Part shown: in pieces, positions 1 to 59,805 of the stretch | Layout: each line of letters starts with the position of its first letter | Position numbering within the stretch: position 1 is the stretch's first letter | Source: Amphiura filiformis | Lineage: Eukaryota; Echinodermata; Ophiuroidea; Amphilepidida; Amphiuridae | Direction of reading: 5' to 3' | Assembly (NCBI RefSeq): GCF_039555335.1 | Contig: NC_092641.1 | Coordinates: 36,604,548-36,668,547, forward strand | DNA: 64,000 bases | Position numbers and translations under genes: made by a program | The notes under the pieces: generated by a model | Databases searched by the model: none | What the model was told of the DNA's origin: nothing | What the model saw: only the letters and a program-made list of their open reading frames with translations

Positions 1-211
1 CTCTATCTTGAAGATGGTTTAGCACATTTAAGAATTGGTGATTATATTGGAGAATCATTTCACGAAATTGAGCTGACTGGAAAGCCAAAGCTTAAAACGG
101 CTTTGTCTCAATCAAATAGAATATGGCTGCGGTTGATCTTGGAAAAATATATAACTCAACATATTGTAGATTTTGTTTTACAAGTTGACACTTTCTCTGG
201 AGGTGTCGAAG
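1..211 (+). CDS. Exon: C-terminal part of a CUB-like extracellular domain
   Basis: Read in frame 1 from the first base, the exon gives 70 residues and ends in phase 1 at a GTAAGA donor (212). The pattern LRIGDYIGESFHEIELTG, then a Ser-Gln-Ser-Asn turn, a hydrophobic IWLRLIL strand and a closing DFVLQVDTFSGG strand, is the CUB C-terminal half (G-x-G loop, SNxLxLxF-like strand, GFxxxY-like last strand). The exon start lies left of the window. The phase-1 end matches the phase-1 LDLa exons that follow, which supports one gene. It is called by eye; a divergent beta-sandwich of another kind is possible. Confidence 0.6.
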
Positions 212-3200
212 GTAAGAACAAAATATTTCTCTTTGGCTTTGCTCCGATGCTGGACAGTTTGCATACACTCCACACAAAATGGATCGTTACACTGGAAAAA
301 GTCACCGTGATTTGAAAACCCAACGAGTTTTGAGCAAACTAATAAATTCGCTTAATATAGCATTTCATACTGTGCAATATGGACTTCAATTGTTGCTCTG
401 CTAGTTTTTGAACAAGCATTTCAATTATTGTTTAAGGTCGGATTTTAGAAGTTGCAGAAGTCCCTATACAAATGATTCTGCATTACATCAAACACTAAAA
501 TGTTCTTAAAACGCTTATTCAAAAGGTTTTAATGACATTAAATATCGGGTTATAATAATAAAGATCATGAATACGTTTTTAAAACGTTAATGTAAAATAT
601 TTTGGGCAAACATTTGTGCAAGATAAAAATTCTCTTAGAATGTTTTGCATCACGTTTTCAAAAAATGTTTTATGAATGTTACTAAAACGTTTTTATACTT
701 CTGTCCCACTTCTGTCAAACGTTGTGTGCTTGCTGACTTACTGGATGAGTATCCAATGTTGTACATGCTTTATTGTGCGCGCCATTTTCATTCAGATTTA
801 AAGGGCATATCTATTGCAAAAACAAAGTTGACGCTCGTTGCAATTTTTTTTATTCGTATTTCTTCTGAAAAAAAAAGACAATTGTGTTGGTAAGATGCTG
901 CCTCGTACGGTCCTTCCCCCGTTCGAAGCGAAATTGATTTCAAATGCAGGAGACTGGTGACGTCACAGTAAATGAAGAGCCATGTTACATACACATGGGC
1001 CCTCGATATATGCTCTTTTGAAATTCAATCATGTGTATAATGCGCGACCTTATACCAAGAGAATTCGGGAAGGTTCAACAAAAGGCCATTGGAATTATTT
1101 ATTTTCATAAGAAATACAATATGGAATAATGGATATACATCACGCCCAAATTCCTAAACTCGCACGTAAACATTGGTCTAAATATTTTTAGTCCAAATAT
1201 TTCTCATCAACTTGATATACATATGACTTGTAATATCACAATGTACTTATAATTATATAATAAAGCAGCGGCCTGATTTTATCCATATGTGTAAAACCAT
1301 TAAATTTGTAATACTTGATTCAGAGTTTTTTTCTGATAACAAAAACAGTATACGTTCTGTGCATTGAGAGTATTGACAGTCCATTCTCTCAAAGCTTGCA
1401 CACTTCATTTCTTGACATCACAGTTTTTCTCACCGCTTACAGTTGGTTTTAGCGGAATATCAATTTTAAACATTTTCATTGTCATCATAATATTAGCTTG
1501 CCAATGATATCATGTTGTCCGAGCAATATAAACTGGCCTCAAAAAGAAACTTTTCAAAAGTTCATATCTTACCCTGTCCATAAAAATGAACAAAAATTTC
1601 ACACAGGATTACTTCGATCTCCCATCAGTGGTACACTTGCAGGATCATGACCAATCCAAATTTAGCAATCCAAATTTCTGCTCATTTTAATGCTTACTTT
1701 AAGCCATCCATGGTTTGTTTCTCAAAATGAAAATTAATTTGGTTTGGTGTGATGCGCCCGTATGCTAAGTAAAGATTTGTTCGAAGTCTACCATGTTATG
1801 ATACTGATAATAACAATAGAGGCCTTGCATGTGACGTATCATCCCGTAAATATGGCGGACTACTCAAATGCATTCAACAAAAGCATGATTGCAACCTACC
1901 GTGACAGTTCGTCTCACACACATAACCCTGCACTACGATCAAATAGGTTGATGACAACATTTGATTGAATGGACTGCACTCATAACTCCGGTGAAGGACG
2001 CCGGCTCAAATCCTTTGTTTGGAGCCAATCGATAATTTCATGCAGGGCCTCTATAAAAAACTTTTTAGACTGCAACAAGTCTTTTCTAAAACATTGTATC
2101 TATTTGGATAATGATTTGGAAATTCAAAATCATATTTGCCACACAAAGTGAATTTTCTTTGAAGTTTTAAAAAAGTGGATATAATTATATCCAGAATACA
2201 CTGTTTAATATAGTTTGCTGAAGAAAGATATTTCCCACCTCTTAAGGCATATCGTGTGGGTCTATATTACAGCTTGGACAGAATTTCCGTTTTGATTTCA
2301 CATTTTTCACTTGCGACTGCGAAAATGTTCAACCAGTTCTTCATTTCTAATAATTATAACCAGCAGAAAGAATCGATACTTCTATTGTGGCTTGCAAAAT
2401 CACCCTTCTATGGGAACATTCGCGAGTTGAAAAAAATGGCAGTCGGAACTGAAAAATGGTGCAATCAAAATCGAAATTCTGACAAAACTATGACATAGCT
2501 TTATATGATGTGCTTTAGAAAGTTGGGAAATATCTTTCGTTAGCGAATTATGTTACTTTGAATAGCAAAAACGTTGACCTCAAAAAAAAGCTCGCGGGGC
2601 AATTTGAAGCGTGTGAAAATCGAAAATCTTACTCTAGAAGCCTAAATTTCACACCTAAGTTTAACATCAGGGTTTGAAAAAAATAAACAGTACCAATCAT
2701 TATAGTTTTCTTCTGACATTTACTGAAAAAATGAAACTTAGTTATTGCTTTTCATTTGGCCGGGAAAATTAATTTTACATTAAAAAGGTGTAACTCAAAA
2801 TTTAGCTTATTTCAACACCAAATTCAATCGTTTGTATTGCCTCATTAAATGAATGAGTGAGCCTTGTACAACAAAAGATATCGGTTGACCAACGTTCTGA
2901 GTGTCATTGCATTATTAAGAAACTGAACATCGATGATCGAAATATGCTGGCAAACGAAGTGTAACAAAAGGTGTGGTTATGTCCGCAGCTGGCCACCGAG
3001 AGATTGTTTTTGTTTGTAAAAAAATGGATGAAAAACGGTCTGTTTTAGATACCAAAGTATTTCTTGCTTTTTTTCTGTAGAAGCATGTTATGATTCCGAG
3101 TATCATTGCGGAGACGGATTTTGTATAAGCAAGGAGAATGAATGTGATGGATTTCATGACTGTCAAATTAACAATGAAGACGAAACGTTTTGTGGTATGG

Positions 3201-6200
3201 CAGAAATCGAAAATATTCACATGCACACCAACAGTCCTCCCAACTCGCGTGGACAGGCAAACGAGGACCTCATTCTGCATCTAACTTTATTCTATCTAAC
3301 CGAGGACAAAGATACATGTATCCAATTTTAATCTCGAAACTCGAAACACCGGGGGAGGGCACTCGCATATATTGGCACGCGTCATATACCTGTTTTTTCA
3401 GGTTTTTCAGAGCCCTTTTTCTGCAAATCTGCCACCCGATGACCCCTTTTTCATCAGCATATCCTACAATGACCGTCTTTTTTTAGAAATGTGTTCAATT
3501 TAAGCTCCAATATGTTATATTTACATGTTTCATGATCATTTCTTAGTTCAACAAGAAATTCCCCCCTCCCCCGGTTGCTGACTTTCTGTCTGATTTCCGC
3601 CTGATATTGTGTCAAATATCGTATAATCGTCTGCGTTCGTGATCTGTGATCACAGCGTGTCTACTTTGTTTTTGTTTCTTCCATCCTGGTATAGCGTACG
3701 TTTTGTGTCCAGGGTACTATCTTTGTAAGCGCATCTCAGAATTCGATGATCTTATGTGTAAAACCATTAAATTTGTAATACTTGATTCAGAGTTTTTTTC
3801 TGATAACAAAAACAGTATACGTTCTGTGCATTGAGAGTATTGACAGTCCATTCTCTCAAAGCTTGCACACTTCATTTCTTGACATCACAGTTTTTCTCAC
3901 CGCTTACAGTTGGTTTTAGCGGAATATCAATTTTAAACATTTTCATTGTCATCATAATATTAGCTTGCCAATGATATCATGTTGTCCGAGCAATATAAAC
4001 TGGCCTCAAAAAGAAACTTTTCAAAAGTTCATATCTTACCCTGTCCATAAAAATGAACAAAAATTTCACACAGGATTACTTCAATACTCTACTCTAAACA
4101 CTGGTCAGTAACCAAACAGTTGTCCAACTGACACAACAGCAAAATGCACACCACATTCACAGCCCAATAATTAGATAGCTAAAAGTCGATCGATACATGT
4201 TAATATAAGCACAATTCAGATATACACCTTTTTGCTATGAAATTAATTTTCTCGGTCAAAATAATATAAAGCAATATTTTTTTCGTTCATAAATGTTAGT
4301 TAAAAAATCCTGGTGTTAAAATTAGACATGAAATAGTGTCTTTAAGGGTGATATTTTTGATTTTTATAGGCCTTAAGGGGGGACTACACCCCTGGCCAAT
4401 ATTGCGCCTATTTTTGCATTTTTCTCAAAAATTATAGCGCATAGGTGACAAGTAATATATGTATATTATAGGGGCAATGACTGCAACTACTGCACTGGAA
4501 AATTTTATTTCATCACAGACAGCAATTGTGCAGTTACAGTCAAAAATGAGGGAAAACCAATATTTGAAAAATAAATCAATAACTACTTGCCTTGAGTTGA
4601 TGAATTTTCTATGCAGTGGTTGTAGTCCTTATAATATACATATCTTACTTGTCACAATGCACTATAATTTTTAAGAAAAATGCAAAAATAGGCACACAAT
4701 TGGCCAGGGATGTAGTACCCCCTTAAGTTCGCCCGCGAGATTTTTTTCGGAATACATTTTTAGCGTTTCAAACTAATAACATAGTGTACTTTCATTTTGG
4801 AATAAATTAAGTCCGTTTTTTTAAAACTACGTACAAACTGACGTTTAATCATAGACCATTTGGTTTAATTGACTCGCACCATTACGTGTCGAGGTAAAGC
4901 CATGAAATTGTGCCTATTTAGAAGATTTAACTCATCATGCAGCTATAATGTACACTATCACTATACTTGTCCATGTTATCAAAGATATGGCTATATGCAG
5001 CTGTCAATTTTCTGAAGTTTCTCTGCTGAAAACTATAATTGGCATAAGGAATTAAGGACGCAGATCACCAAATCGGCTTGAAAATGATGCCAGTCTTTCT
5101 CTATTGATAATGCTGCTTAAAATCATAAAAAAATTCTCGATCTCCCATCAGTGGTACACTTGCAGGATCATGACCAATCCAAATTTAGCAATCCAAATTT
5201 CTGCTCATTTTAATGCTTACTTTAAGCCATCCATGGTTTGTTTCTCAAAATGAAAATTAATTTGGTTTGGTGTGATGCGCCCGTATGCTAAGTAAAGATT
5301 TGTTCGAAGTCTACCATGTTATGATACTGATAATAACAATAGAGGCCTTGCATGTGACGTATCATCCCGTAAATATGGCGGACTACTCAAATGCATTCAA
5401 CAAAAGCATGATTGCAACCTACCGTGACAGTTCGTCTCACACACATAACCCTGCACTACGATCAAATAGGTTGATGACAACATTTGATTGAATGGACTGC
5501 ACTCATAACTCCGGTGAAGGACGCCGGCTCAAATCCTTTGTTTGGAGCCAATCGATAATTTCATGCAGGGCCTCTATAAAAACTTTTTAGACTGCAACAA
5601 GTCTTTTCTAAAACATTGTATCTATTTGGATAATGATTTGGAAATTCAAAATCATATTTGCCACACAAAGTGAATTTTCTTTGAAGTTTTAAAAAAAAGT
5701 GGATATAATTATATCCAGAATACACTGTTTAATATAGTTTGCTGAAGAAAGATATTTCCCACCTCTTAAGGCATATCGTGTGGGTCTATATTACAGCTTG
5801 GACAGAATTTCCGTTTTGATTTCACATTTTTTCACTTGCGACTGCGAAAATGTTCAACCAGTTCTTCATTTCTAATAATTATAACCAGCAGAAAGAATCG
5901 ATACTTCTATTGTGGCTTGCAAAATCACCCTTCTATGGGAACATTAAAAAAAAAAAAAAAATGGCAGTCGGAACTGAAAAATGGTGCAATCAAAATCGAA
6001 ATTCTGACAAAACTATGACATAGCTTTATATGATGTGCTTTAGAAAGTTGGGAAATATCTTTCGTTAGCGAATTATGTTACTTTGAATAGCAAAAACGTT
6101 GACCTCAAAAAAGCTCGCGGGGCAATTTGAAGCGTGTGAAAATCGAAAATCTTACTCTAGAAGCCTAAATTTCACACCTAAGTTTAACATCAGGGTTTGA

Positions 6201-9200
6201 AAAAAATAAACAGTACCAATCATTATAGTTTTCTTCTGACATTTACTGAAAAAATGAAACTTAGTTATTGCTTTTCATTTGGCCGGGAAAATTAATTTTA
6301 CATTAAAAAGGTGTAACTCAAAATTTAGCTTATTTCAACACCAAATTCAATCGTTTGTATTGCCTCATTAAATGAATGAGTGAGCCTTGTACAACAAAAA
6401 AGATATCGGTTGACCAACGTTCTGAGTGTCATTGCATTATTAAGAAACTGAACATCGATGATCGAAATATGCTGGCAAACGAAGTGTAACAAAAGGTGTT
6501 GTTATGTCCGCCGCTGGCCACCGAGAGATTGTTTTGTTTGTAAAAAATGGATGAAAAACGGTCTGTTTTAGATACCAAAGTATTTCTTGCTTTTTTTCTG
6601 TAGAAGCATGTTATGATTCCGAGTATCATTGCGGAGACGGATTTTGTATAAGCAAGGAGAATGAATGTGATGGATTTCATGACTGTCAAATTAACAATGA
6701 AGACGAAACGTTTTGTGGTATGGCAGAAATCGAAAATATTCACATGCACACCAACAGTCCTCCCAACTCGCGTGGACAGGCAAACGAGGACCTCATTCTG
6801 CATCTAACTTTATTCTATCTAACCGAGGACAAAGATACATGTATCCAATTTTAATCTCGAAACTCGAAACACCGGGGGAGGGCACTCGCATATATTGGCA
6901 CGCGTCATATACCTGTTTTTTCAGGTTTTTCAGAGCCCTTTTTCTGCAAATCTGCCACCCGATGACCCCTTTTTCATCAGCATATCCTACAATGACCGTC
7001 TTTTTTTAGAAATGTGTTCAATTTAAGCTCCAATATGTTATATTTACATGTTTCATGATCATTTCTTAGTTCAACAAGAAATTCCCCCCTCCCCCGGTTG
7101 CTGACTTTCTGTCTGATTTCCGCCTGATATTGTGTCAAATATCGTATAATCGTTCTGCGTTCGTGATCTGTGATCACAGCGTGTCTACTTTGTTTTTGTT
7201 TCTTCCATCCTGGTATAGCGTACGTTTTGTGTCCAGGGTACTATCTTTGTAAGCGCATCTCAGAATTCGATGAGACAAGGTGCATTGTGAATGAATTCAT
7301 TTGTGATGGTATATCGAACTGTGTCTTGGGAGATGATGAAACATTTTGTGGTGAGTTGACTATGGGTGTAATAAAAGCCAGAGATAAAGATACTAATTCG
7401 CATCTTACGGTCCCGTCAATCAAACTCCACACGTTCCATTTTGGTTAGTGGTGCGTAAAAGGAAGGTTGCTTCATCTGGTGCCTTCATCGGAGAAAAGGA
7501 ATAACAGAAGATGGCTGACGATGTCGGTATGTAAAGCCTTAATGTACGATTTCCGTCAAATTTCAATTTTGTCACTCTTTTCCTTCAAAATGTTGAAATA
7601 ATATTAGTAATAACTGCCGGGATGATTGCTGTCCATTTTATGCTGAAATAACAATGTAAAGTGAATGAAACCCCAATGGTTATTTTGGCCATTTACCATG
7701 CAGTTCTATGGGAGGATATCAAGTCATAATTTTTTTTAAATTATGACTTTATGTCGAACTTTGCTCTGTTGACCTACAAAGAAAACAAATTTGACCGAGG
7801 CCATATAGGTGCAAGTTGGGACATGTGTAAACATTACAAATATGCCAAAAAAAATCATGTTTGGAAAAAAAAAACAATTTCGTATTATAAAATCGTACGT
7901 TATGGCTTTAACCAGGCAAAAAGATCAAGCAACTTTTTTACGCGATTGTTGCCATAGTGCCATCAAGCAAGCATTGTGGCGCGTAAAACCAGCCAATAGA
8001 GAGATTGCGATATTTACGTGAAACGTGATACGGGAACGTCAACCACATGCTACATTAGTCGAAAATCAGTTAGTATGCCCTCTAGAGGGTGAAATCTATT
8101 ATGAATTGGTCAATCATGGAATTACCTTAAGGCGGTTACTTTGCGGTTGGTAGCAAAAAATGACGTTCCAAAATGACAAAAAAAAGCATTACAAAATACA
8201 GAAAAATTTTATGTTTGTCATGTTATGAAGTATCCAAATAGAAAAAGTAAAATCCAACATGTAATAAACTCCATTTTGGGGGTTACAATTTGACCTAGTA
8301 TAGACAAGAAGAAGGTTAATAAATTTCGAATTTTTTCGACGCGAATCCGAACGGACAGATTGCCTATTCATTTGTGTGTGAGAATGCCGTCCAAAAATCA
8401 TGTTGCGAAAAGACATTTTAGTCAAGATCGTGTCGCATAATGTCATTTTTCCCCATTGCTATTTCGTTGCGTTAAACAGCTGTCAAAGTGTTTTGATATT
8501 CAGCAAACACTAAAATGATAATGCATGTGTTTTTAGTTTTAGTTAAAATATTTTGATAACATGTCAATGTCTGTTTATTATATAAATCATGAAAACTCTT
8601 TTTTTAAACGTGTTATTCTAAAAAAATATAATACCGCGATATTTTAAACCAGAATTCGAAATGCTATAGTAAAATATCATTTGGCAAACATTTTGTGTAC
8701 TTAAGTCTATTATGTTAAAATGTTTTACAGAAAGTTTTAAACAAAATGTTTCTTTTTACGTTATTAAAACCTTTTATACCCTTGACCCTCACATACCCTT
8801 TAACCCGACATTTAACGTTTTCTATAATATATTTGTGTTTGCTGGGTAGTAATCAAACTCGATGCACCCTAGGGGAATCAATGGGTGCTTCCTATTATCT
8901 TTAGATATACTAGTGCACCTGCAGCTGTAATGGCCTTGTAGCTATTAGGGCACCAGCTGCATGATAGAGATACTGCTTGACCCCTGGTGATCCTTTTTGA
9001 CTTTATGGCATGTTCCTGACATTAATTTTTTTTTTTACCATGTTAAATCCCAATTGGGCATACTCTAACATTTGACCCCATACGACCTTTGACCTCGAGT
9101 GACCTTGGTTTGATTTTGTTCATGCTCCCATGATATGGAGAATACTTTGAGCCAAATTGGGCGAACTTTGAAATTTTGACCCCAGATGACCTTTGACCTC

Positions 9201-12200
9201 GGATGACCTTGATGTAATTTTTTTCATGCTTCCCTCATATGATGGATTCCACCCACTAAGTTTGAGCCTGATAGGACAAAGTTTGAAATCCATGACCTTT
9301 GACCTTTGACCTCGGATGACCTTGATTTAATGTTTTTCATGCTCCCCTCATACGAAGGATTCCACCCACGAAGTTTGAGCCCGATCGAACAAAGTTTGAA
9401 ATTTGACCCCTCCGTAATGACCTTTGACCTCGGTCGACCTTGATTTTATTTCGTCCCTATATTCCCCTCGTATCAAGGATCCCACCCACCAAGTTTGGGC
9501 CCGATCGGACAAAGTTTGAAATTTTGACCTTTGACCTTGACCTCCGATGACCTTCAAAACTACCCGGTAAACAGCGCCCGCCCGGTACCCATATATGTCT
9601 GAAATATCGGAACCATGCGTCGAAGCGCGGCGAAATGCATAGCCGGACAGACACACAGACACACAGACACACAACGGCTATTATTTTAGTAGTATAGATT
9701 TGTCTCAGCATAGCGCTACCATGAGCTTATTGGGTAAGTCCATATGATATCAAGGAGGTCCCCCACCTGAACCCCTCAGATTTGCTTTATATTTTAGTCA
9801 TATGTTGTACCTGTAAAAATATTTAAAACCTGCAAATTTGAGGTCTGTAGCTCTTACGGATTTTCTGTGGCAGCCATTTAAAGTTGAAGTATGGGGTTCT
9901 AAATTTGGACTCAAAAGTTGCCCTTTAAATAAATGTCATCTTTGGGAGTCTGTGACTTCTTTACAAAATAAGAGAGAGGTCTGAAACCTTGTATACACAC
10001 TAACTGCATGCCCAATTTGTCAAAAAGTAAAAAAAAAAAAAATCTGTAATTGCACGTTGTGTCACGGGGTCATTAAATATGCAAGAAAAAATGTAATGTT
10101 TTGTAAACTGGCAAGTTTAGCCCCCCTAAATTCACATTTTTTGTCAGATTAATTATTTTTTGTTGTCACTGATGCTAAATATAGGATAAATACAATGCTT
10201 ATCCAAACAATTGAGGTCACAACTCATTTACATTTCGAACAGCGCCCTCACGAAGATGAAATTTATTGCAAATTCAACATTTTCAGGGGGTCCAAAGTCG
10301 ATGTGGTCCACCTTCAAAATTTATAAAACATTTTTTTATATGACTACTAGTCTTATATTACAACTTTGCAAAGTCTCAGTAATTGTCTAGGTTGACTTCA
10401 TATAAAACGACAAGCCCAAAGTTGACCATTTTCTTATGATTGCATGTACTGCAAAGGTGTCGAATTTGGAAGGCTTAAAGTCAAATTGGCCCCAATATTG
10501 AAAATAAAATGGAAATTAAAGTAAATAGGGCCAATAACTACGCATCTAGTCATTTATTTTCAATATTGTGGCCATTTTGACTTTTAAACCTTCCGAATTC
10601 GGCACATGTGAATTTAGGGGGGCTAAAACTTGCCAGTATACAAAACATTACCCCTAAATTCACATTTGTTGTCAGAATAATTGTTTTTTGTTGTCACTGA
10701 TGCGATATATAGGACAAATACAATGCATATCCAAGACATAGAGGTGACAATTTATTTACATTTCGAACAGCACCCTCGCAAAGATGAAATTTAAGTTGCA
10801 AATTCAACATTTTCAGGGGGCCCAAAGTCAATGTGGTCAACCTTCAAAATTCATAAAACATCACTTTTATATGACTACTAGTCTTAAAGTACAACTTTGC
10901 TATATCCCAGTAATTTTATAGGTTGACTTCATATAAAACGACAAGCCCAAAGTTGACCATTGTCTTATGATTGTATGTACTGCAAATGTGCCGAATTCGG
11001 AAGGTTTTAAAGTCAAAATGGCCACAATATTGAAAATAAATGACTAGATGCGTAGTTATTGGCCCTATTTACTTTAATTTCCATTTTATTTTCAATATTG
11101 GGGCCAATTTGACTTTAACCCTTCCAAATTCGGCACATTTGCAGTACATGCAATCATAAGAAAATGGTCAACTTTGGGCTTGTCGTTTTATATGAAGTCA
11201 ACCTAGACAATTACTGGGACTTTGCAAAGTTGTAATTTAAGACTAGTAGTCATATAAAAAAAATGTTTTATAAATTTTGAAGGTGGACCACATCGACTTT
11301 GGACCCCTGAAAATGTTGAATTTGCAATAAATTTCATCTTCGTGAGGGCGCTGTTCGAAATGTGAATGAGTTGTGACCTCAATTTTTTTGGATATGTATT
11401 GTATTTATCCTATATTTAGCATCAGTGACAACAAAAATAATTAATCTGACAAAAATGTGAATTTAGAGGGCTAAACTTGCCAGTTTACAAAACATTACAT
11501 TTTTTTTTCTTGCATATTTAATGACCCCGTGACACAACGCGCAATTACAGATTTTTTTTTTTTACTTTTTGACAAATTGGGCATGCAGTTAGTGTGTATA
11601 CAAGGTTTCAGACCTCTCTCTTATTTTGTAAAGAAGTCACAGACTCCCAAAGATGACATTTATTTAAAGGGCAACTTTTGAATCCAAATTTAGACCCCCA
11701 TACTCCAACTTTAAATGGCTGCCACAGAAAATCCGTAAGAGCTACAGACCTCAAATTTGCAGGTTTTTAATATTTTTACAGGTACAACATATGACTAAAA
11801 TATAAAGCAAATCTGAGGGGGTTAGGTGGGGGACCTCCTTGATATCATATGGACTTACCCTATTGCAATTGCGTTTATAATGTAGTCTCGGTTCAGACTG
11901 TATGCGGCTATCACGAACATGAACGTTAGGACCGACATAAACTGGCTGTGTAGGAGACTAGTTTGGATGTGAACGGCACTTAGTCTCCTCCGCAGCCAGT
12001 TTGGTTACGCTCCCTCCACACAAACAGTCTGCCAATTGCCACTAATAACGCCGTTTCTGATTAGCTACACGAAAGTAGCCGTAGAGCTGTACATACGGGA
12101 ACTTGATTGACCTCAGTCTAGCTGGTGAGATGGCGGGTCAAACTTGCTCATGAATAATAAAGTAGCCGTCTAGCCGATCGACCAATTGAAAGCTTTGTTT

Positions 12201-13225
12201 GACGTCAAGCTGGATGACGTCGGCAGAAAACCGTTAGCGAATCAAAAAGGACCAGTTCGTGATCATTGGCAGACTGTTTGTGTGGAGGGAGCGGAACCAA
12301 ACTGGCTGCTGTGGAGACTAAACGGCACTATGCCATTCTACCGCACAATGTCGTAATACGTCTTCCGTATGGCGTTTGCAGTGAACACCTCTTCGCAATC
12401 TCTTATCTTCGCGCTGACTTCAAATCAACACAAATAGCTGCAACTTTGACCGAAATTTGACGATTGGGTTATCAAAGTGCGCGTAAATAAGCCATCCTGG
12501 TTTCGATGTTAAAATATTGTGAAAGCAATTATTACTTCTGAAGCTATATGCGTATTTATAACAGCTGCATTACTTTTTATGCAGTCTCTATATCAATGCA
12601 CCTGCAGGTGTTTTATCACAATGCACCCACTTCGGTTTGTAAAAAAGAAAAGGGTGATTGTATTGTTGTTGTTGTTTTTACACAGATTCCAGACGCTGTC
12701 CTGAAAATTGTAATTGTGTACTTACAGATGGGAACCTTGCAACTTATTGCAATAAATCATGGAACTTGGAGACACTTGCAGACATAGCGAGGAAAACACA
12801 GACATTGTAGGCCTATGCTGATTGCTGATATTATTTATATTTGTGTGGGGGGTGTGGGTAAGGGGATATTACATTATGTCACGTGAGCAATTGGGACCCC
12901 ACAAGGACACTGGTGTAAGAAGGTGTGGTTGTGTGTATAAATTGACGGTTTCTCATTTTATTCCGGGGGCGTGCGCGAATGGGGAGGGGGCTCTCACATT
13001 GGTCAGTCGGGGATATTGAATATCAAATTGGTCAGTTGAGGAGAAACTCGGGGGAAATGATCGGTTGTGAAATTAGAAAATGGTCTATCGATTCGTTAAA
13101 GTCGGTAAAAAATCTTGAAAACTTCCTAATTGAGTCGTTTCAGGGGAATTTAAGCCTTAGTTAATTAATCTACAAAAAAATTCCAACTTAGTAAACCTAC
13201 AAAGTTGCCTTTGTTTACTCCTCAA

Positions 13226-13311
<86 letters not shown>

Positions 13312-16300
13312 TAGCGAATACGACAACTTAAAGAATTGAATGAAGGGTATCCTTCCACAATATAATTAGTAAATTGCCTATGTAGAATGATGAAAGTTTG
13401 CTTGTTTCCGTTAGAATTCTTTCTGGAGCTAAACAGGTTCGTTTACAAACCGGATGCTTCAAATCGTTTGCATTCCTTCATACAATGTAAGTCAAGTAAT
13501 TGTGTTCTTACCGTATGGCACAAAAATACTGCATTGCTTTGAAAGCTTTTACTTCGTTTTGGAATCTGATGCCGACTTATATTACGAACTTATTTGAGCA
13601 ACTATATATCGTACTCTAAGTTCATTTTGGTACTTTATGTAATTATGGATCCTGACTATACAGGGTGTATCAAAATTAAGTATACAGTTTGAAAAATGTC
13701 GCTAGATTAAAAAGTATGAGGTCTTTGGTCAAAATTCTCTAGCTGATAACTTAATCAACATCTTGTCCTCAAACAGCTGAAAAAATCACTGGCGTGTGAC
13801 CATTAATAAGGATTTGGTGGCTACTTTTGTGAGCCGAGTACAAAAAGCAGTTGCGCAAAGTCAATTGGGTTTAAATGCCCGGTGCTTGTTATTGTTATGC
13901 AGCCAAGAGAAACATACAGGTGTACGTACAGATCATTTGTCCTCATTGTTAGGGTTCCAATCCTGTGCATGTGTGAGTTACATAACACGTGACTTTTGAT
14001 AAATCTGGGCAACTATCTCCTTACATATGCTAGGTTTTACTTGACATTAAAATGGAAACTCCACAGTACATGCCAGAGCAAAGGGCCTTCCTTGTTGCAG
14101 TGTACCATTGCACCCAGAGTCCAGCAGAAGTGCTTCGGAGATTTCGTCAGCAGTACCCAAATACACGTCCCCCTTCACGTGGTGCTATTTACAAAAATGT
14201 TACGAAGTGGAATAACATCTGCAACCATTACCAGAATAACCCGTTTATGACTTGCGATTTCATCCCTATCAGACGATAAGGAGACATCAACTTCAGCAAG
14301 CAGATCACCAACTGTGTTCTGTCAGTGGCTTCTTGCCCGTCCCTTACGTTTCCTGGAAGATTTAATCATTGGCGATGAAGCAGAGTTTGCATTAAATGTT
14401 TTCACAAGTCCTCCTGCAGACCTTGATGAACTTCAGAGACGCACAATTGCACAAGTTGACATTCTCAGGCAGGACATTAGACGTTGTGTGAACGCCATGT
14501 TGAGAAGAGCCGAAATCTGCATACAGAAGAATTATGGGCATGTGGAGGACCAAGACTAAAACTGTCAATAATTGTAAACCGTAAAGAAAGTGGTCAGACT
14601 TTTTTGTGATTTGTATGTTGTTTTGATTTTAATTGCCTCCGCCCAACTGCTTTTTGTACTCGGTTCAAAAAAGTAGCCACCAAAAGGTACAAGTTACCCA
14701 GAATTCCTGTGTAGAACATGATCAAAAAAGGTCATCAAACTTTATACTGTAAATTTTGACATCTGTGATGTATGGTTTATGCGTTCTTGAATTATACAGT
14801 TTACAATTTGAGACCATTTTATCCAAACTGGTGTGGAGCCGAAAACTTGAAATTTATTCCATTCCACTTGGAGTAGCATTTTAAAGAAAGAATAGTTTGC
14901 CATATAATTATCATGTGGTTTGTGCCAAGGTTAACAGGAATTTTATGGGCTTTGACCTTTGTTATCCTGATACTTAGGGCTCTACGTCTTTGACTGAAAT
15001 AACTATATATGTCCAAAAGTATATATTATTGTTATTTCAGCGGCATGGTTTCATATAATAGAACCTACATTTTTACGAAGTCGAAAAAATATGTAACTCG
15101 TGTTTCTTTTAGTTCCATATGTTATTTATTGACAATATTTACATTCTTTGATAGGTCAATGAGCAAAAGTGGCATTCAACATATTCCTAAACATGCGTTT
15201 TACGGAGCGTTTAAATTACTAACACTGTAAGTATCACAAGTAGCGTTTATAATCGTCATCATGAAAATAATTCAGGAAATATAAAGTGGATGATTTATAT
15301 CATTTGATCGTGGTGAACAGCAAAATATTTGAAGCGGGAAAAGATACAGCCTGCTTAAAGCTTTGATGAAACATAACTACTATCATGCTAGATTATCGGT
15401 TGCTACCAAGGAATATTCGGCACTGGCTGACGCTCACGGTTGACAATGTACCTTTCATACGTCAACAGTATATTTTTTCATGTGAGCACCTGTACTGTCG
15501 TACGTCATTTTATGCGTCTTTATACATCTTTAGCCTGTTATGTTCATATTTAAGGTTACTTCGTTTGCTTTAGTCTCCATGGCAGCCAGTTTGGTCCGCT
15601 CCCTCCACACAAACAGTTTGCCAATGATAACGAACGAGTTCTTTTTGATTGGCTAGCACATTTCCCATGACGTCATCCAGCACGTGCTGCTCGTGTATCT
15701 GATTATTCAGCCAGGAGTTCAGCCCACTGGCAGTGGCGTACCGTGGCCGCCCCAACCCCAGGGAATTTTTTTCTCGGTCGTTTGAAAAAGTGAAGAGAAA
15801 AAATATAAATAAAAAAAAAAACACGGTTTCAGGCGCTAGCGCCCGAAAAGCAGCACATTTTGATGTAGAGTACCATTTTTTCAAAATATTTTATGCTTTA
15901 TCAAATTTTTCCGCCCTTTTTTATTTCCTAATTCTTTTTACCGCCCTTTCGTTTTTGCCGCCCCTTCTTCTTCCGCCGCCCCTTCATTTTGGCCGCCCCT
16001 TGCTTTTACCCCGGGGGCTGGCGCCCCCAAAGCCCCCCCCCACCAAAATACGCGCATGCACTGGCAATCAAGTTCCCGAAAATATCGCTTCTGATCAGGT
16101 TCTCATAGACTTTGCATTGTCGCCCTCTTAGATATTCAGAAACGGCGTACATACGTGGTCATTGGCAGAATGTTTGTGTGCAGGGAGCGTAATCAACAAA
16201 CTGGCTGCGGAGGAGACTACGTTTGCTTCGACAGCGATGTCTGACACAAACAAAACTTATTGGGCATCTAAAATGAATTACTTTCTAATTGATTTAAACA

Positions 16301-19300
16301 TGCGTCTCTTAAAATACCCGGAAGTGTGTGTGAAAATGCGCATGTTACACTTTGTTCCGAAAAGAATTATGTAAATTAATAATGCAAATGTATTATAGGA
16401 ACTGTATCTAATATGCAAAATTAATATGGTAAGAACAGACCGTCTATATTAATAAATATTAATGCAAAAATTAATATGAACAATGTAATTTTCCCCTTAT
16501 GATGATTTTAGGATGATTATTATAATTAGTTTCTCATTGGCTATAGTGATAAAAAAAAATCAAGATACTTTTAGTGATATTTTTGTGTTTTCTTTCTTTG
16601 TTTCAAGCGACTTATCTAATAACGAAATATCATTGTCGGAAGTCAACGTTTTTGAAGATATACCACGACTACTGGAACTGTAAGTAAATATATACTATGT
16701 AGTCGTAGATTACTTAAAGCAAACTTCTATTCAGCAAATCTCACTCCACATTGAGTTTTTGGTATCAAACAAGCCTGCTAATTCACTGCATTGTCAATAT
16801 AAATATTTTTGGGTTTTTCTTGTTTTGTTTTTTAATTTCATAGATGCGTTGTGAGTGTCATTGTATGGCGCCATCTTGTTTCACGAGTAGATTGTGCTGG
16901 TATTATCAAAGACAGAGATAAAAAGATTTTATCGCGTCTGACGTCATCTGTCAATCAAACTCGAGCACGGTTTCTTAACAAGTGTCGTGATGATGACTTC
17001 CTAAACGCGGATAAGGCGCCCGGTTATACCGCCGCGGCGGTATAACCGGGCGCCTTATTGTAAATTTTGCACCTTCAAACACACACACCATCTCAAAAGT
17101 TAGGTCTTTATAGTAGGAAACTTTCTTTCGCGAAGGCACCATGTCAACAATGCCTAGAAATGTTGCTTTTTGCCTTGTAAAAGTACGTAATTTTTCGCCA
17201 TTTACTGCTATTCCCTTTCTCCGATCGGCACCACATAAATCGGCCTTCCTTTTACGCGCTATTAACCAATCAAGGATCGTAATCGACAGTAATGTCAGAC
17301 GCGATAAAATCTTTTTATCTCTGTCTTTGATAATAGTTAAGTTTGGTCACCTTATCAAAGGTCAATTTAAGAAGGACGCCTGGCAGGACAAAACCAAGTT
17401 TTACACACTATCGAGTTTTACGCGCTGCCTATACAGTGTCACTTGGTGCAATTGTGCAAATTATTCATACTAGGCGGTTAGCCATATTTGGCGGTTATCG
17501 GTTGTCGCGATTACCTGGCTGATGGTGACTGTACTCACCAAGTTTCATGCTCATGCGGCAATTTTTACTAATTTGACCTCAGATGACCCCTGGTGACCCC
17601 GGATGACCACAAAACGACCTTCCAAAAATTTGGTTTTTAAATGTTGACTGTATCTACCAAATGTCATGCCCATACGACAGGTTCTGCTAATTTGACCTCA
17701 GAGGACCCCTGGTGATCTCGGATGACCCCTAAATCACCTTCCAAAAAGTGGCTCTAAATGTTGACCCACCCACCGCCCATATGACAGTTTCTAGTAATTT
17801 GACCTTGGTGACTCCGGATGACCCTAAAATGACCTTCCGCAAATTTGGTTCTAAATGTTGACTGTACCCACCAAGTTTCATGCCCATACGACAATTTTTG
17901 CTAATTTGACCTCAGATGACCCCTGGATGACCTTGGGTGACCTTGACCCACTAACCAATACAAACTTGTTCTGTCTGGGGTCACGATGCATCGACCCACC
18001 AAGTTTGAGGAACATGCGACCATTAGTCTCCGAGAAAAGAGGCAGGCAGACAGACACACTGGCAGATTCCGGTGAATTATATTAAAGATTCTGATCTATT
18101 TTACATGACAATTAATTTGAGACCAGTTTTGTTAAAATCGGAACATCTATCAGTTTTTGCGCCTGTATGCCCTAAAATTTCACCGTTTTGATATAACTTG
18201 AGATCGATCTAGGTCAAATGTAGGTCGATTTTCTAAATACGTAGGATTAGTAAAATATTTTGGTATTCTGAGCAATTTTGAAATTGGACCCCTGTGTGAC
18301 CTTTGATGGACCCGTTCCCACCCCACGGCCCATATCCATAATTCCACTGGCAAACTGGAAATTAACATTCCTACATATCATGACACTCCCCACATTTAGC
18401 AATGCATTTAATGACGAATTCTAGCTGAAATAGCAGTGGTATTATCTGTCCAATTAACTTAAGAGACCCAGTACAGTTTTTGTTACTTAATTGAAAAATT
18501 CTACACTTTCAAAGAAAGTCATGAAAGAAAAGTGCAAACATCAAAGCATTGAGGGAGAGTGTACATAAAATTTTATTGAAATTGACAGGTTTTCTCAACA
18601 TTTCAAAAATAATCTGGAAGAAGTTGGGTGCCATTATTTTGGAAGATCTAATTATACGGATTTGTAGGTATGGTGATTTTAAGCTATTTTAGATAAAGAT
18701 GGGATGAAGGCTGGCTTATAATAAATAAATAATATTCATCACCAAAAACATCTGTTAAATAATTCAGTTCATTCATAAGTACAGGCAGTGTATTGCCCTT
18801 TCATTTTCAGAGTTTTACCTCAGTTATTCCGGCTGTCCCTCAGCTAATATTCCAGTTAACTGCAAAATTTTTCAAAATTAAGTGTTTTGTTTTTTATTTC
18901 CTCTATTTAAAATATCGGCTTATCCTTTCCCCGAAAAAGTTTAATTCTCAATCAGCACTATTATAGACCCCCAAAATTGCATTTGAATCTTCTTCTATGG
19001 ATGACTGTGGCTTGACCCAATTCTATGAAAAAAATACAACTTGTACAATGTTGTATGCCATATGAATTTTCTGATGTTATTGGTATTTTGGGTTTTGTTT
19101 CTGTTTTGGATTTTGCCCCCCCAACTTACTTTTCCCCCATTCATGGCGCCGTCACTTAACGTAGTGTATATTAACAAACAAGTATTGCACAATTATCTTT
19201 GTCTTTGCTTTCTTTATGTGTTTAGATATTTATGGAACATATCGTCAGCGAGCATTTATGAAGGAACCTTTGCAAATCTGTCTTACCTGAACACTCTGTA

Positions 19301-21453
19301 AGAAAGCAAACATTATGTCGATAGGTGAAAAAAGAGGTTCTGTATGAATTATTCACATGGCAGAAGTCAAAATTGAATCTTATATTTTTTCCTCATGCAA
19401 GAATAACTAAACCAGAAATGTACACACAATATTTACCTGCAGAATCATATTCAAATCTTGTAAGGCTAAACCAACAACAAAAGGATATTAAGGACAATTT
19501 TCTGTTTAATTTTATATTAATAAGTTTTAAAATTCAAATATGATAATGGTTATATCGTGTCTTTCAGTGTAATAGGGCAAAATGGAAGCGATGAACCAGA
19601 AATACACAACGGCATTTTCAGCACACTACAGGATCTCAAAACTTTGTGAGTATTAACGCAAGCAACTGGAATCCTTGAAACGGGTGGCCACACTGCAAAA
19701 AATATTTTACTCAACATTGAGTAAAAAGGTAAAAAGATCACAACTCAACAAATGAGTAAAAAATTACGCAACATTGAGCTTAAAAAGGTCACAACTCAAC
19801 AAATGAGTAAAACATTAGTCAACATTGAGCTCATATTGATAAATATTACCCAACATTGAGGGTAATATCTATTAAAAATGAGCTAAATTTGAGCAATGTT
19901 TAACTCATTTTGTTGAGCTGTGACCTTTTTACTCAAGTTGAGTTCTAAGACTGCATTGGAATTTAATGTAATCAGAAAAAAATCGTCGGCAATTTGTGTT
20001 ACAACCTGGCAACAATTCAGAATTTTATCCCCATAGATCACCCTATAGCCTAAGTCCCTTGACCCCTCTCTCGTATAACATAATTTTTCATCAGGTTCGC
20101 CGTCGCAAACAATAAAGAAGACAAGCATACAAAGTGATCCCGCCGGAGAATCGAACCCAGGACCTCAGACTTTCAAAACCGGTGCCTTACCCACTCTGCT
20201 TGGCTCCGTTATTATTTGCGACGGCGAACCTGGTGAAAAATTATATTTATTGGTATCTGTAAAATAAATTGTGAAAGGCTGGCTCTCTACCCCAGCTACG
20301 CCACTGGGACTCAGCTGTAGAAAATTATAATTATAATATACAACATTACTAGACTCTTTTTGAACATTACAGATACGTCGCTGATCACAGACTGTGTTGT
20401 CATGTACCAAACTACACCACCTGCATTACCAACGAACAACAGCCATTACACTTTCTTTGTGGGAGTTTGATGCAAAACCAAATCCTCCGATCATTCATGT
20501 GGATTTTTTCCGTTTCTTCGATATTTGGGAATATATTAGTTTTGATGGTGCGACTGCGAGCTAAGACAGTAAATGATATCCAAAAAGTTTGTGTAGTTCT
20601 AATTGCAAACCTATCAGTTGCAGACCTGTTAATGGGAGTTTACATGCTGTTCATAATCGGTGCAGATCTATTTTATGCGGATGAATATTTCATGTATTCG
20701 GATTCATGGAGGGAAAGTAGTCTTTGTAAATTTGCAAATTTTCTTGTCGTTTTATCAAGCGAGACATCCTTGTGTATAATATTTATCATAACTGTTGATA
20801 GATTCCTATGCCTGGTATACCCATTCAATCCATCAAGACATTTCTCACGTACATCTGCTATGATTGTCATTTGTTTCGTTTGGTTTGTTACCGGTCTTTT
20901 GAGTCTGCTGACGTCTCTTTTTTCTGGTGACAAATATGATGTTTATATTCTCTCTGATGTTTGTATCGGGATACCACTTATAAGACGCATTGTAAGTTCC
21001 CAAGTCAGTGACAGTGAAATTCTAAATTCCATACAAGCTGAAGTGTTCACAACCGAAAAAGCGGCCGAGTTTAGCATTTTCTTTTTCCCGGTGGTGATAT
21101 TTCTTGGAGTTAATTTAGCATTAATAATTCTGACGATGATCTTGTACACGGTGACTTTTGTTGCTATTAAAAAAGCGAGGAAAGTTAACCCTTGTAATTC
21201 TATGAAAAAGAATATTTTGTTATCGATAAAGTTGTCAATTATTGTCGGTACCAATTGTCTTTGTTGGCTACCAATATTTGTTATGGGCGTATTGTCTCAA
21301 AGTGGAGTTATTACATTTCCAATCGAAATGTACCACTGGTCAGTGGTGTTTCTTTTGCCGATCAACGCCTCGATAAACCCGTATCTCTATACATTAATTG
21401 AAATAGCTGAAGGAGCTTATACACGGCACATAAAAAATATAAAAAATCTCTAA
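1..21453 (+). CDS. CUB-LDLa-LRR seven-helix receptor gene (relaxin-receptor/LGR type C-like), 5' incomplete
   Basis: Spliced gene; coding exons 1-211, 3081-3194, 6604-6717, 7219-7350, 12686-12806, 15155-15226, 16608-16679, 19226-19297, 19568-19645 and 20373-21453. All junctions are GT-AG with matching phases, and the sum is 2067 nt, open to the stop (688 residues). Domain order is CUB-like C-terminal half (about 1-70), three LDLa modules (about 71-190), cysteine LRR N-cap (about 190-230), four LRRs (to about 328), Cys-rich C-flank, then seven membrane helices. Family knowledge: LDLa plus LRR plus rhodopsin-like 7TM defines type C LGRs (RXFP1/2, snail GRL101), which are plasma-membrane hormone receptors coupled to G proteins. 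The ligand here is unknown. A CUB domain ahead of the LDLa modules is unusual. Further upstream exons lie outside the window; one or more LRR exons may have been missed in the large introns. Confidence 0.82.
486..736. mobile_element. Degenerate CAGCAAACAC-family element
   Basis: Starts AAACACTAAAATG and ends GTGTGCTTGCTG, with repeated AAAACGTTTT words inside. It resembles 8501-8844 and the sequence near 60745-60930. The rest of 212-1285 shows nothing further that I recognise. Confidence 0.4.
3081..3194 (+). CDS. LDLa module exon (first tandem copy)
   Basis: A 114-nt symmetrical phase 1-1 exon between a TTTCTGTAG acceptor and a G|GTATGG donor. It encodes one LDL-receptor class A repeat with six cysteines (CYDSEYHC, GFC, NEC, HDC, TFC) and the CDG..C....EDE..C calcium-cage region near its end. 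It is an exact-looking duplicate of 6604-6717. Because the exon is symmetrical, including both copies keeps the frame. In this family the LDLa module contributes to receptor activation. Confidence 0.8.
3711..3749 (+). pseudogene. Truncated copy of the second LDLa exon
   Basis: The acceptor and the first part of the exon at 7219-7350 (YVLCPGYYLCKRISEFD) are repeated here, then the sequence breaks at 3749 and runs into the start of the next tandem unit. The missing half holds the remaining cysteines and the donor. If it were spliced in, the frame would run into a stop at about 3830. A normal transcript should therefore skip it. Confidence 0.75.
4083..5136. other. Segment present only in the second duplication unit
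   Basis: About 1054 bp lies between the two parts shared with unit 1. Its borders share only a few bases (TTC/TC). There is no clear target duplication or terminal repeat around the whole segment, so loss from unit 1 fits better than insertion into unit 2. It contains the TTAA-flanked MITE at 4377-4722. Confidence 0.6.
4377..4722. mobile_element. Foldback MITE with TTAA flanks
   Basis: Inverted ends GGGGGGACTACACCCCTGGC and TGGCCAGGGATGTAGTACCC enclose further self-complementary sequence (an AAAAATAGGC-type core and poly-A/T). TTAA stands on both sides (4373-4376 and 4723-4726), the target used by piggyBac and Kolobok transposons. No coding capacity. Confidence 0.7.
6604..6717 (+). CDS. LDLa module exon (second tandem copy)
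   Basis: Same 114-nt phase 1-1 exon as 3081-3194, displaced by 3523 bp. Acceptor TTTCTGTAG, donor G|GTATGG. Six cysteines and the acidic calcium-binding end are kept. It splices in phase to the next LDLa exon at 7219. Confidence 0.85.
7219..7350 (+). CDS. LDLa module exon (intact)
   Basis: A 132-nt phase 1-1 exon after TGGTATAG and before G|GTGAGT. It encodes a complete LDLa repeat: CPGYYLC, RC, FICDG, SNC and GDDETFC give six cysteines with the D/E cluster expected for calcium binding. Positions 7219-7273 lie inside the tandem duplication; the rest is unique. Confidence 0.88.
8501..8844. mobile_element. CAGCAAACAC terminal-inverted-repeat element
   Basis: Begins CAGCAAACACTAAAATG and ends TTTGTGTTTGCTG, giving 10-bp inverted ends CAGCAAACAC/GTGTTTGCTG. 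The interior has AAAATGTTTT and AAAACCTTTT words. CAG...CTG ends suggest a hAT-like non-autonomous element. Copies at about 486 and 60745 show it is dispersed. Confidence 0.55.
9050..9690. repeat. Degenerate tandem repeat of a TTTGACCTCGGATGACCTTG unit
   Basis: A unit of roughly 105-120 bp recurs four to five times: TGACCTTTGACCTCGG..., CATGCTCCCCTCATA..., CCACCCACCAAGTTTGAGCC, GGACAAAGTTTGAAATTTTG. It ends in CAGACACACAGACACACAGA. A related but distinct array is at 17520-18065, also ending in a cagacaga run. It behaves like the variable part of an interspersed element. No coding meaning. Confidence 0.7.
9732..11860. mobile_element. 2.1-kb palindromic DNA element with TATT target duplication
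   Basis: The left end GGGTAAGTCCATATGATATC is matched in inverse at the right end (GATATCATATGGACTTACCC). TATT flanks both sides (9728-9731 and 11861-11864). The arms remain complementary for several hundred bases inwards. The inner region has a direct repeat of one arm segment (about 10118-10600 against 10640-11040) before the reverse copy. No protein-coding frame. It lies in the intron between the last LDLa exon and the LRR N-cap. Confidence 0.8.
11883..11960. mobile_element. Short remnant of the TAGTCTCC element family
   Basis: Starts TAGTCTC and ends ACTGGCTGTGTAGGAGACTA, the family's inverted ends, with only about 40 bp between. The flanks do not give a clean 9-bp duplication, so it is an old or rearranged copy. 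Confidence 0.45.
11981..12320. mobile_element. TAGTCTCC MITE, 9-bp target duplication AACGGCACT
   Basis: Inverted ends TAGTCTCCTCCGCAGCCAGT and CTGGCTGCTGTGGAGACTA, followed inside by TTTGGTTACGCTCCCTCCAC and its inverse. AACGGCACT flanks the element exactly on both sides (11972-11980 and 12321-12329). Nine-base duplications point to Mutator-like (MULE) or Merlin-like transposases. A second member is at 15571-16219. Confidence 0.88.
12686..12806 (+). CDS. LRR N-terminal cap exon
   Basis: A 121-nt exon after TTTTTACACAG, entering in phase 1 and leaving in phase 2. It reads SRRCPENCNCVLTDG, then NLATYCNKSWNLETL. The C-x3-C-x-C...C pattern is the classic LRRNT cap placed just before leucine-rich repeats. 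The phase change links the phase-1 LDLa exons to the phase-2 LRR exons, which is strong support for its place. The donor is GTAGGC, weaker than the others. Confidence 0.82.
13225..13308. repeat. (AAT)n microsatellite
   Basis: About 28 near-perfect AAT/TAA units. Apart from this tract, 12807-13659 shows nothing I recognise. Confidence 0.95.
13660..14765 (+). pseudogene. Internally deleted mariner/IS630-type transposon with DUF4817-like transposase remnants
   Basis: A 75-codon frame at 14052-14279 begins METPQYMPEQRAFLVAVYHC and continues SPAEVLRRFRQQYPNTRPPS, the N-terminal helix-turn-helix (DUF4817-like) of a widespread invertebrate transposase. A second frame at 14314-14559 has FCQWLLARPLRFLEDLIIGD (start of the DDE core), then jumps to a C-terminal SPPADLDELQRR...NAMLRRAEICIQ segment, so most of the catalytic core is deleted. 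Long subterminal inverted repeats flank it: 13816-13853 is matched in inverse by 14644-14681. Weaker terminal repeats lie near 13665 and 14760. It cannot encode an active enzyme. It sits in the intron before LRR exon 1. Confidence 0.8.
14766..15154. other. Intron remainder, nothing recognised
   Basis: AT-rich sequence between the transposase fossil and LRR exon 1. I see no exon with acceptor, donor and LRR pattern and no repeat. Confidence 0.5.
15155..15226 (+). CDS. LRR exon 1 (72 nt, phase 2-2)
   Basis: Acceptor TTTGATAG, donor GTAAGT. Encodes one 24-residue repeat: SGIQHIPKHAFYGAFKLLTL, matching xxIxxIPxxAFxxLxxLxxL. A 72-nt phase-2 exon per repeat is typical of LGR-family LRR regions. 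Confidence 0.85.
15571..16219. mobile_element. TAGTCTCC element, 9-bp target duplication CGTTTGCTT
   Basis: Ends TAGTCTCCATGGCAGCCAGT and AACTGGCTGCGGAGGAGACTA; CGTTTGCTT flanks both sides (15562-15570 and 16220-16228). Subterminal GCTCCCTCCACACAAACAG and its inverse match the copy at 11981-12320. The middle (about 15728-16060) is a GC- and C-rich stretch starting GTGGCGTACCGTGGCC, probably a secondary insertion. CACTGGCA occurs at both edges of that stretch. Confidence 0.88.
16608..16679 (+). CDS. LRR exon 2 (72 nt, phase 2-2)
   Basis: Acceptor TTTGTTTCAAG, donor GTAAGT. Reads DLSNNEISLSEVNVFEDIPR followed by LLEL, a standard LxxNxI leucine-rich repeat. Confidence 0.85.
16901..17335. mobile_element. 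Inverted-repeat element with central perfect palindrome
   Basis: Forty-two-base arms (16901-16942 and 17294-17335) are inverse copies containing GACAGAGATAAAAAGATTTT and ending CGCGTCTGAC. At the centre, 17011-17058 is a perfect 48-bp palindrome (ATAAGGCGCCCGGTTATACC, then GCCG|CGGC at the axis). It may be a foldback element nested in another. It lies 220 bp after LRR exon 2, just past an acceptor-like TTTCATAG at about 16844, so it could have disrupted an LRR exon. Confidence 0.7.
17520..18065. repeat. Degenerate tandem repeat of a CACCAAGTTTCATGCCCATA unit
   Basis: About four copies of a 110-120-bp unit containing CCACCAAGTTTCATGCCCAT, CTAATTTGACCTCAGATGAC, CCCTGGTGACC and GACCTTCC..AAATTTGG. 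It ends in GGCAGGCAGACAGACACACT. Related in style to 9050-9690. Confidence 0.7.
18090..19225. other. Intron between LRR exons 2 and 3, nothing recognised
   Basis: AT-rich. No LRR-type exon with matching phase and no clear transposon ends were seen. Confidence 0.45.
19226..19297 (+). CDS. LRR exon 3 (72 nt, phase 2-2)
   Basis: Acceptor TATGTGTTTAG, donor GTAAGA. Reads YLWNISSASIYEGTFANLSY then LNTL, with the xIYxGTFxNLxxLxxL end of a repeat. The 2.5-kb intron before it is filled with transposons and may hide a further LRR exon. Confidence 0.82.
19568..19645 (+). CDS. LRR exon 4 (78 nt, phase 2-2)
   Basis: Acceptor GTGTCTTTCAG, donor GTGAGT. A 26-residue repeat ending IHNGIFSTLQDLKTL; two residues longer than the others, as often seen for a last repeat. 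Confidence 0.78.
19690..19960. mobile_element. MITE-like element with CAACATTGAG repeats
   Basis: Begins CCACACTGCAAAAAATATTT and ends CTAAGACTGCATTGG. Inside, AAAAGGTCACAACTCAACAA and GTCAACATTGAGC alternate several times in direct and inverse order. Subterminal repeats with CACTGCA-type ends suggest a hAT-like non-autonomous element. It lies in the intron before the last receptor exon. Confidence 0.45.
20080..20246 (-). mobile_element. tRNA-like core held between inverted arms (SINE-related)
   Basis: On the minus strand 20208-20136 reads as a tRNA-like sequence: A-box-like GCAGAGTGGGTAAGGCACCG, anticodon-loop-like TTTTGAAAG (Ser-TGA style) and B-box GGGTTCGATTC. The acceptor ends do not pair, so it is not a working tRNA. 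Unusually, the core is bracketed by about 37-bp inverted arms containing CAGGTTCGCCGTCGCAAA (20080-20116 and 20209-20246). It is about 130 bp upstream of the 7TM exon. Confidence 0.6.
20373..21453 (+). CDS. Final exon: LRR C-flank and complete 7TM domain
   Basis: Acceptor TGAACATTACAG, phase 2 entry; stop TAA at 21451. It starts YVADHRLCCHVPNYTTC, a cysteine pair region like the hinge of type C LGRs, then seven hydrophobic helices. Rhodopsin-family marks: GNILVL in TM1, NLSVADLLMGVYM in TM2, the SLCK cysteine at the top of TM3, VDRFLCLVYPF (DRF in place of DRY) at its base, SDVCIG in the second outer loop, CWLPIF in TM6 and NASINPYLY in TM7. The LMGVYM and SSETS patterns resemble relaxin receptors. 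The whole 7TM domain is in one exon. The tail after TM7 is only about 17 residues with no clear palmitoylation cysteine, shorter than most relatives. No GT donor follows TM7, so this is the terminal exon. Confidence 0.92.
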
Positions 21454-30916: not shown

Positions 30917-31349
30917 GTAAAATAATTTTCTTTTGCACAAAACCAAAATATTTTACATGATGCAGTCATGTCTACAGTAGAATTCAACTCGACCTTTGCA
31001 GGAGTTAAACCCCATTAAAAGCTATTAAACCAAGATAACACTCATTGAAAACAGCTCAACTGATTAAATCATATCTTCTCTGGTTAAATACACACAACAT
31101 ATGTTTCTGCATTACACGTACAGTGGAGCAATGAACTGGGATTATACTTTCAGTTGGGTGAACGATTATAAAGCGAGCGCTATAGAGAACAATTCTGTAT
31201 GGTCTTTGTTTACGAAATGAGACAATGCGTGCTTATTGTTAACCAGCGTTCTTGAAAATGAGAAACATGGTGGTTTGCAGACTTAACACGGTTTGGAAAT
31301 AATTTCTTCATATTTTTTGGTGTTTTCTGTCGTTTACATATCCTTCCTA

Positions 31350-31655
31350 AAACACCAAAGTACGCATATTTCCAAACATCTAAATTGGCTAAAAATTTAG
31401 GACATGTTACAAAACTATATTTTCTAGAATTTTAGAAGAGTACTTTTAATATTGGCCGGTTATTTTTCACACAGCGACGTTGACTAGGCAATGTACTATT
31501 ACCTATAACATTAACTAAAACATCAAAGTACGCATATTTCCAAACATCTAAATTAGCTAAAAATTTAGGACATGTTACAAAACTATATTTTCTAGAACTT
31601 TAGAAGAGTACTTTTAATATTGGCCGGTTATTTTTCACACAGCGACGTTAACTAG
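31350..31655. repeat. Two-copy tandem repeat of about 165 bp
   Basis: AAAGTACGCATATTTCCAAA, AAAAATTTAGGACATGTTAC and TTGGCCGGTTATTTTTCACA occur twice in the same order, about 165 bp apart, with few differences. The repeat lies in the segment that splits the left terminal repeat of the Penelope-like element. Confidence 0.8.
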
Positions 31656-31948
31656 GTATATCCCCATACTTTTAACGTAGGCTATTTGTAGAGGTCACGC
31701 GTCAATGGGAAAGAGCACTGTGTATTGTGTATAGGAAAACGGACAGTAACTGCAGTATGACTCACTTGACGGTTTCGCCTATCATGGTCGATAGGCATCC
31801 TCAGAATGATGTTGGATGATCCTTACTTCCGGTAGGACGTATCCCGACTGTAGAGGGTGTATTTACAGCCAGGAGAGGATCATACACGTGACTAAGAGCT
31901 AGCGTGCCGTAAGTTACCCAAAAATGAAGCTACTTTGCTTAGATCTGA

Positions 31949-35318: not shown

Positions 35319-35321
35319 TTA

Positions 35322-59800: not shown

Positions 59801-59805
59801 TTTCC

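Follow-up and report, generated by a model that had tools for sequence, protein, structure and literature searches.

The 64,000-nucleotide stretch of Amphiura filiformis DNA that was analysed (the window) contains, within a predicted hormone-receptor-like gene, two direct copies of a segment that includes one complete LDLa exon and ends in the middle of the next one. We consider it probable that this duplication is real, whether or not the receptor has gained anything by it, and we favour, with moderate confidence, the fuller reading in which a real and young duplication made by end joining has provided the receptor with one more LDLa module.

When the window was compared with itself by BLAST, positions 1286-1621 matched 3753-4089 at 99.4% identity and positions 1614-3749 matched 5137-7273 at 99.0% (E=0), and for matches of such length and identity chance is ruled out. 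A whole exon is thus present together with its flanking introns in two adjoining direct copies, i.e., as a tandem exon duplication (Table 1). The sequence-only reading had spoken of two near-identical units with outer ends at 1286 and 7273; the base-by-base comparison showed these ends to be exact and the units to be direct tandem copies, but the near-identity holds only if a 1056-bp block in unit B, which that reading did not contain, is set aside. No third near-identical copy of the duplicated region exists in the 64 kb, where its 24-mers occur at most twice, and no reverse-complement 24-mers of the region were found in the window. The LDLa exon that had been proposed to be placed twice is the same in both units, where it lies within an identical stretch of 612 bp, and it is symmetrical, as had also been proposed, being flanked by AG and GT; its score for Pfam PF00057 is 28.1 bits (cut-off 24.1). 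The half copy of the next LDLa exon, predicted to result from the position of the unit's right end inside that exon, is there as well and equals 7219-7273 base for base. The complete second LDLa exon stays below the cut-off for the same family and yet has six cysteines. The two different LDLa exons agree at 12 of 24 positions in their C-terminal halves, a likeness that is expected of LDLa modules and would agree with an earlier duplication of this kind.

Table 1. Features of the duplicated region and of the gene that contains it (window positions)
Feature	Positions	Strand	Details
Upstream exon, 5' part beyond the window	1..211	+	phase 1 at its 3' end; named CUB-like by eye
Tandem unit A	1286..3749	+	2464 bp; self-BLAST and base-by-base comparison
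LDLa exon, copy A	3081..3194	+	114 nt, phase 1-1; splice sites, phase, Pfam PF00057 (ORF and exon)
5' half of the next LDLa exon	3695..3749	+	55 of 132 nt; acceptor present, own donor absent
Filler TCT between units A and B	3750..3752	.	3 nt; outer breakpoints share no bases at the join
Tandem unit B	3753..7273	+	3521 bp including the 1056-bp extra block
Extra block, unit B only	4083..5138	.	1056 bp; edged by TC
MITE-like palindrome nested in the block	4372..4727	.	71-nt arms 90% complementary; TTAA at 4373 and 4723
LDLa exon, copy B	6604..6717	+	114 nt, AG/GT-flanked, phase 1-1; same sequence as copy A
Complete second LDLa exon	7219..7350	+	132 nt, phase 1-1; PF00057 21.4 bits, cut-off 24.1
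LRRNT-like exon (name by eye)	12686..12806	+	phase 1-2; reading of the sequence, splice sites
LRR exon	13415..13486	+	72 nt, phase 2-2; splice-guided, in LRR region scanned with Pfam
LRR exon	15155..15226	+	72 nt, phase 2-2; splice-guided, in LRR region scanned with Pfam
LRR exon	16608..16679	+	72 nt, phase 2-2; splice-guided, in LRR region scanned with Pfam
LRR exon	19226..19297	+	72 nt, phase 2-2; splice-guided, in LRR region scanned with Pfam
LRR exon	19568..19645	+	78 nt, phase 2-2; splice-guided, in LRR region scanned with Pfam
Hinge and seven-transmembrane (7TM) exon	20373..21453	+	7tm_1; best PDB match relaxin receptor 1

The gene that contains the duplication is, as predicted from its domains, a type C LRR GPCR of the relaxin-receptor/GRL101 group. 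The LDLa modules lie N-terminal of the LRRs, Pfam LRR_8 is found downstream of the LDLa exons (E 4.1e-14), and the 7TM exon matches 7tm_1 (E 2.9e-22); among the sequences in PDB, which comprises solved structures only, the best match of this exon is relaxin receptor 1 (E 2.8e-37, the next being 1.4e-17). In the gene model all the junctions used are AG/GT, the phases agree, and one frame without an internal stop runs through ten joined exons. The exon list is a lower bound, the 5' end of the gene being outside the window and further exons possibly having been missed. Four of the LRR exons were seen by reading the sequence and the fifth by a splice-guided search, in which five were taken among the 14 listed of 72 candidates; a regular expression and a position score both missed the LRR exons. 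A candidate at 17275-17340 outscored three of the five taken and yet has a poor donor, and was left out. The exon at the window's edge had no Pfam or PDB-sequence match at E up to 10, and a CUB domain there is unsupported by either collection, the name having been given by eye. In the model, an intron of the receptor gene contains a large inverted repeat (span 9732-11863) with arms at 9732-10610 and 10983-11860 that are 96.6% identical, and a palindrome, 10648-11474, lies inside it.

The left breakpoint of the duplication is intronic and the right one lies within the second LDLa exon. A filler at a junction whose ends share no bases is a common signature of end joining or template switching. 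Homology-driven unequal crossing over was rejected, since the join shows a 3-nt filler in place of shared bases; among the 80 longest self-comparison matches listed (E up to 1e-10) no repeat joins the two outer edges. We infer the following course of events, of which the junction's anatomy is seen directly and the pathway is deduced from it. A young local tandem duplication within the type C LRR GPCR gene would have joined head to tail a segment that begins in an intron and ends halfway through the second LDLa exon, and end joining would have left the three filler nucleotides at the junction. The 1056-bp block and the few bases by which the copies differ would have arisen later or as differences between the parental chromosomes. 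The mRNA would presumably pass from copy A to copy B and on to the second LDLa exon with the half exon skipped, and its product would be a receptor longer by one LDLa module (+38 aa).

Outside the block, only two isolated substitutions separate the units (at 2975 and 2987), which corresponds to a divergence of about 0.1% (95% interval 0.01-0.29%); the mismatch at 1616 marks the block's edge and is no separate substitution. Two isolated substitutions in about 2.46 kb fit the earlier description of the duplication as recent. The units also differ by eight small indels of 1-2 nt, every one of which changes the length of an A/T run (seven of the eight affect runs at least four bases long). On the assumption of one natural indel per four substitutions, the probability of at least eight indels among eleven events is only 2e-4, and we therefore read the small indels mostly as consensus error or run-length mutation. 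In addition, CGCGAGTTG at 2421-2429 in unit A is replaced in unit B (5946-5954) by nine A's, an exchange of equal length in which eight of the nine bases differ; natural mutation is a hard explanation for this stretch, which is possibly a consensus error. The restriction of the indels to A/T runs and the nine-A replacement point to consensus errors in one copy or both.

Such signs of uneven consensus quality also bear on a different explanation, for which the sequence-only reading had already allowed (an allelic copy left in by assembly). In it, the assembler or a gap closer placed two haplotypes, one carrying the 1056-bp block and one lacking it, in succession, so that each chromosome would have a single LDLa exon here. 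One structural difference and a few SNPs between the units are what may be found between alleles, and a block that is present only in B is also expected from a heterozygous structural variant. Alleles of marine animals often differ by 0.5% or more. If the locus is described by a single tree, the probability of three or fewer differences is 0.27 at 0.5% heterozygosity, 0.15 at 1%, and 0.08 at 2%; a low SNP count is therefore not so unlikely between alleles and is a weak argument for a real duplication. With free recombination at the locus, however, the probability of three or fewer SNPs falls to 0.002 at 0.5% and to 6e-8 at 1%. False exon gains are documented among the false duplications treated in PMC9516828, where Ko et al. 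(2022) give gaps between the copies as a primary mark of a false duplication, others being half depth, discordant linked reads, and single-copy k-mers. Here there is no gap between the copies, and the N count of the window is 0 in 64000 bases. Moreover, a break inside an exon together with a 3-nt filler is an established outcome of end joining. The lack of Ns, the filler junction, and the breakpoint inside an exon speak for a real duplication, and we regard a false one as unlikely, though deserving of serious attention.

With its palindrome left out, the block aligns in reverse complement to 2283-2920 over 683 columns at 55% identity with a score of 421 (the highest of 200 dinucleotide shuffles reached 229, and the forward orientation 134); BLAST of the block against the unit gave pieces of 73-75% over 60 and 79 bases and, with looser scoring, of 61% over about 265. 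To judge from these alignments, the block is for the most part an ancient inverted relative of intron sequence common to both units, with an element nested in it. The TTAA palindrome resembles piggyBac-type transposons of the short, non-autonomous sort. The edges of the block show only the two bases TC on each side and no terminal inverted repeats of at least 12 nt, and a classic transposon was rejected as the origin of the 1056-bp difference, the TTAA palindrome being a separate, nested feature. With strict gap costs, the inverted homology ends about 10 bases from the left edge of the block and 85-106 from the right one, and with looser gap costs the inverted alignment extends beyond the left edge, to 3766. 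In the flanks that the block's surroundings share between the units the inverted homology is not significant (13, 85, 111, and 149 of 200 shuffles reach the score), and the rightmost 85 bases of the block align no better than shuffles (106, 109, and 151 of 200 reach the score). The near-edge end of the homology under strict costs and flanks no better than shuffles lean towards an insertion into B; the unmatched 85 bases on the right, the alignment to 3766, and the lack of terminal repeats lean towards a deletion from A.

The consequences of a real duplication for the receptor depend on splicing. As the exon's phase 1-1 and identical splice sites have been kept, the mRNA most likely joins both copies of the LDLa exon, and the joined frame, counted from the window edge, is open for 712 codons with both copies and for 674 with one. 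The expectation that a module can be gained without a frameshift stands in so far as both copies join in frame; it further depends on the half exon being skipped or spliced benignly. We scored the GT sites from 3695 to 3850 with a generic donor matrix. All 15 sites near the half exon score 0.2 or less, the best being 3724 (0.2), while the nine donors of the gene that were scored range from -0.8 to 7.1, and two of these (-0.8 and 0.0) are below 3724. Because 13 of the 15 sites, 3724 among them, run into a stop if spliced to copy B, skipping of the half exon is most likely a requirement for a normal longer receptor. Skipping is what exon definition favours where the normal donor is missing, and use of the donor at 3724, with the resulting stop, is conceivable.

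The duplication could also be real and yet harmful or silent: either the half exon is used and works like a poison exon or decoy, or the extra copy is skipped, so that the longer receptor is not made. The half exon retains its acceptor and sits between two good copies, nearly all of its GT sites including the best-scoring one give a stop, and when it is read straight on a stop follows at 3834. On the other hand, an exon without its normal donor is poorly defined and tends, by the established rule of exon definition, to be skipped, and the two remaining GT sites, 3814 and 3820, leave the frame open, though they score only -4.6 and -10.3. We find this outcome quite improbable and return to the gain of an LDLa module (+38 aa), which we infer from the sequence, as the expected effect on the receptor.

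Several repeats and element fragments lie elsewhere in the window. A minisatellite with 42-bp units occupies 58036-59447 (33.4 copies) and 59800-60132 (7.9 copies), and since its unit length is divisible by three, all three forward frames are open for about 500 codons over its first array. Shorter tandem repeats are found at 63420-63596 (44 bp x 4.0 at 99%) and 31347-31656 (168 bp x 1.8 at 97%). A reverse transcriptase fragment lies on the reverse strand at 28974-29606 (RVT_1, E 2.9e-18). The open frames in 33534-36114 resemble pieces of a Penelope-like element; a Pfam search of 33534-34130 gave no match above the cut-off.

LDLa exons, LRRs, and a 7TM domain of the relaxin-receptor group liken the gene to the GRL101-like type C2 LGRs, a naming of types C1 and C2 that is also used in PMC11863921. 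Type C2 differs from type C1 (RXFP/LGR3, LGR4) in where its 7TM falls in a tree and in having many LDLa and about six LRRs. The LRRNT-like exon and at least five LRR exons found here (the exon count being a lower bound) would fit the six LRRs of Lymnaea GRL101, which has twelve LDLa (PMC8286064); the GRL101-like receptor of the crown-of-thorns starfish has six LDLa (PMC6267866), whereas the LDLa total of our gene is limited to the window, the 5' end lying beyond its edge. LDLa and LRR repeats are usually encoded one per exon (PMC8286064). The event is of an ordinary kind, as LDLa duplication is already known from starfish receptors of the same group: for the dilp7 receptors of Patiria and Acanthaster, orthologs of the LGR4 type, Veenstra (2021) describes a relatively recent LDLa duplication (PMC8286064), likewise a type C LRR GPCR gaining an LDLa repeat. 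In that account the starfish duplication is derived from similar amino-acid sequences, whereas in Amphiura one can see the breakpoints in the DNA itself, along with the half exon and the filler. A further and much larger parallel is the kringle IV type 2 repeat of human LPA, where a genomic segment several kb long within a coding gene is tandemly repeated and its copy number alters the isoform; it is highly polymorphic, with 1-40 units, compared with two units here (PMC6314250, PMC11462820).

It is a speculative idea, to which we give little probability, that a very young LDLa gain is segregating in this GRL101-like receptor, with the half exon as a splice decoy that tunes the amount of the longer form; if so, the birth of a module would be traceable in a living population. 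Exon counts of LDLa receptors that are taken from single assemblies need read support. If the duplication is real, it would provide a base-level worked example of an LDLa array taking on a module in a hormone-receptor-like GPCR, and it would show the debris that such a gain leaves behind, namely, half an exon with an intact acceptor.
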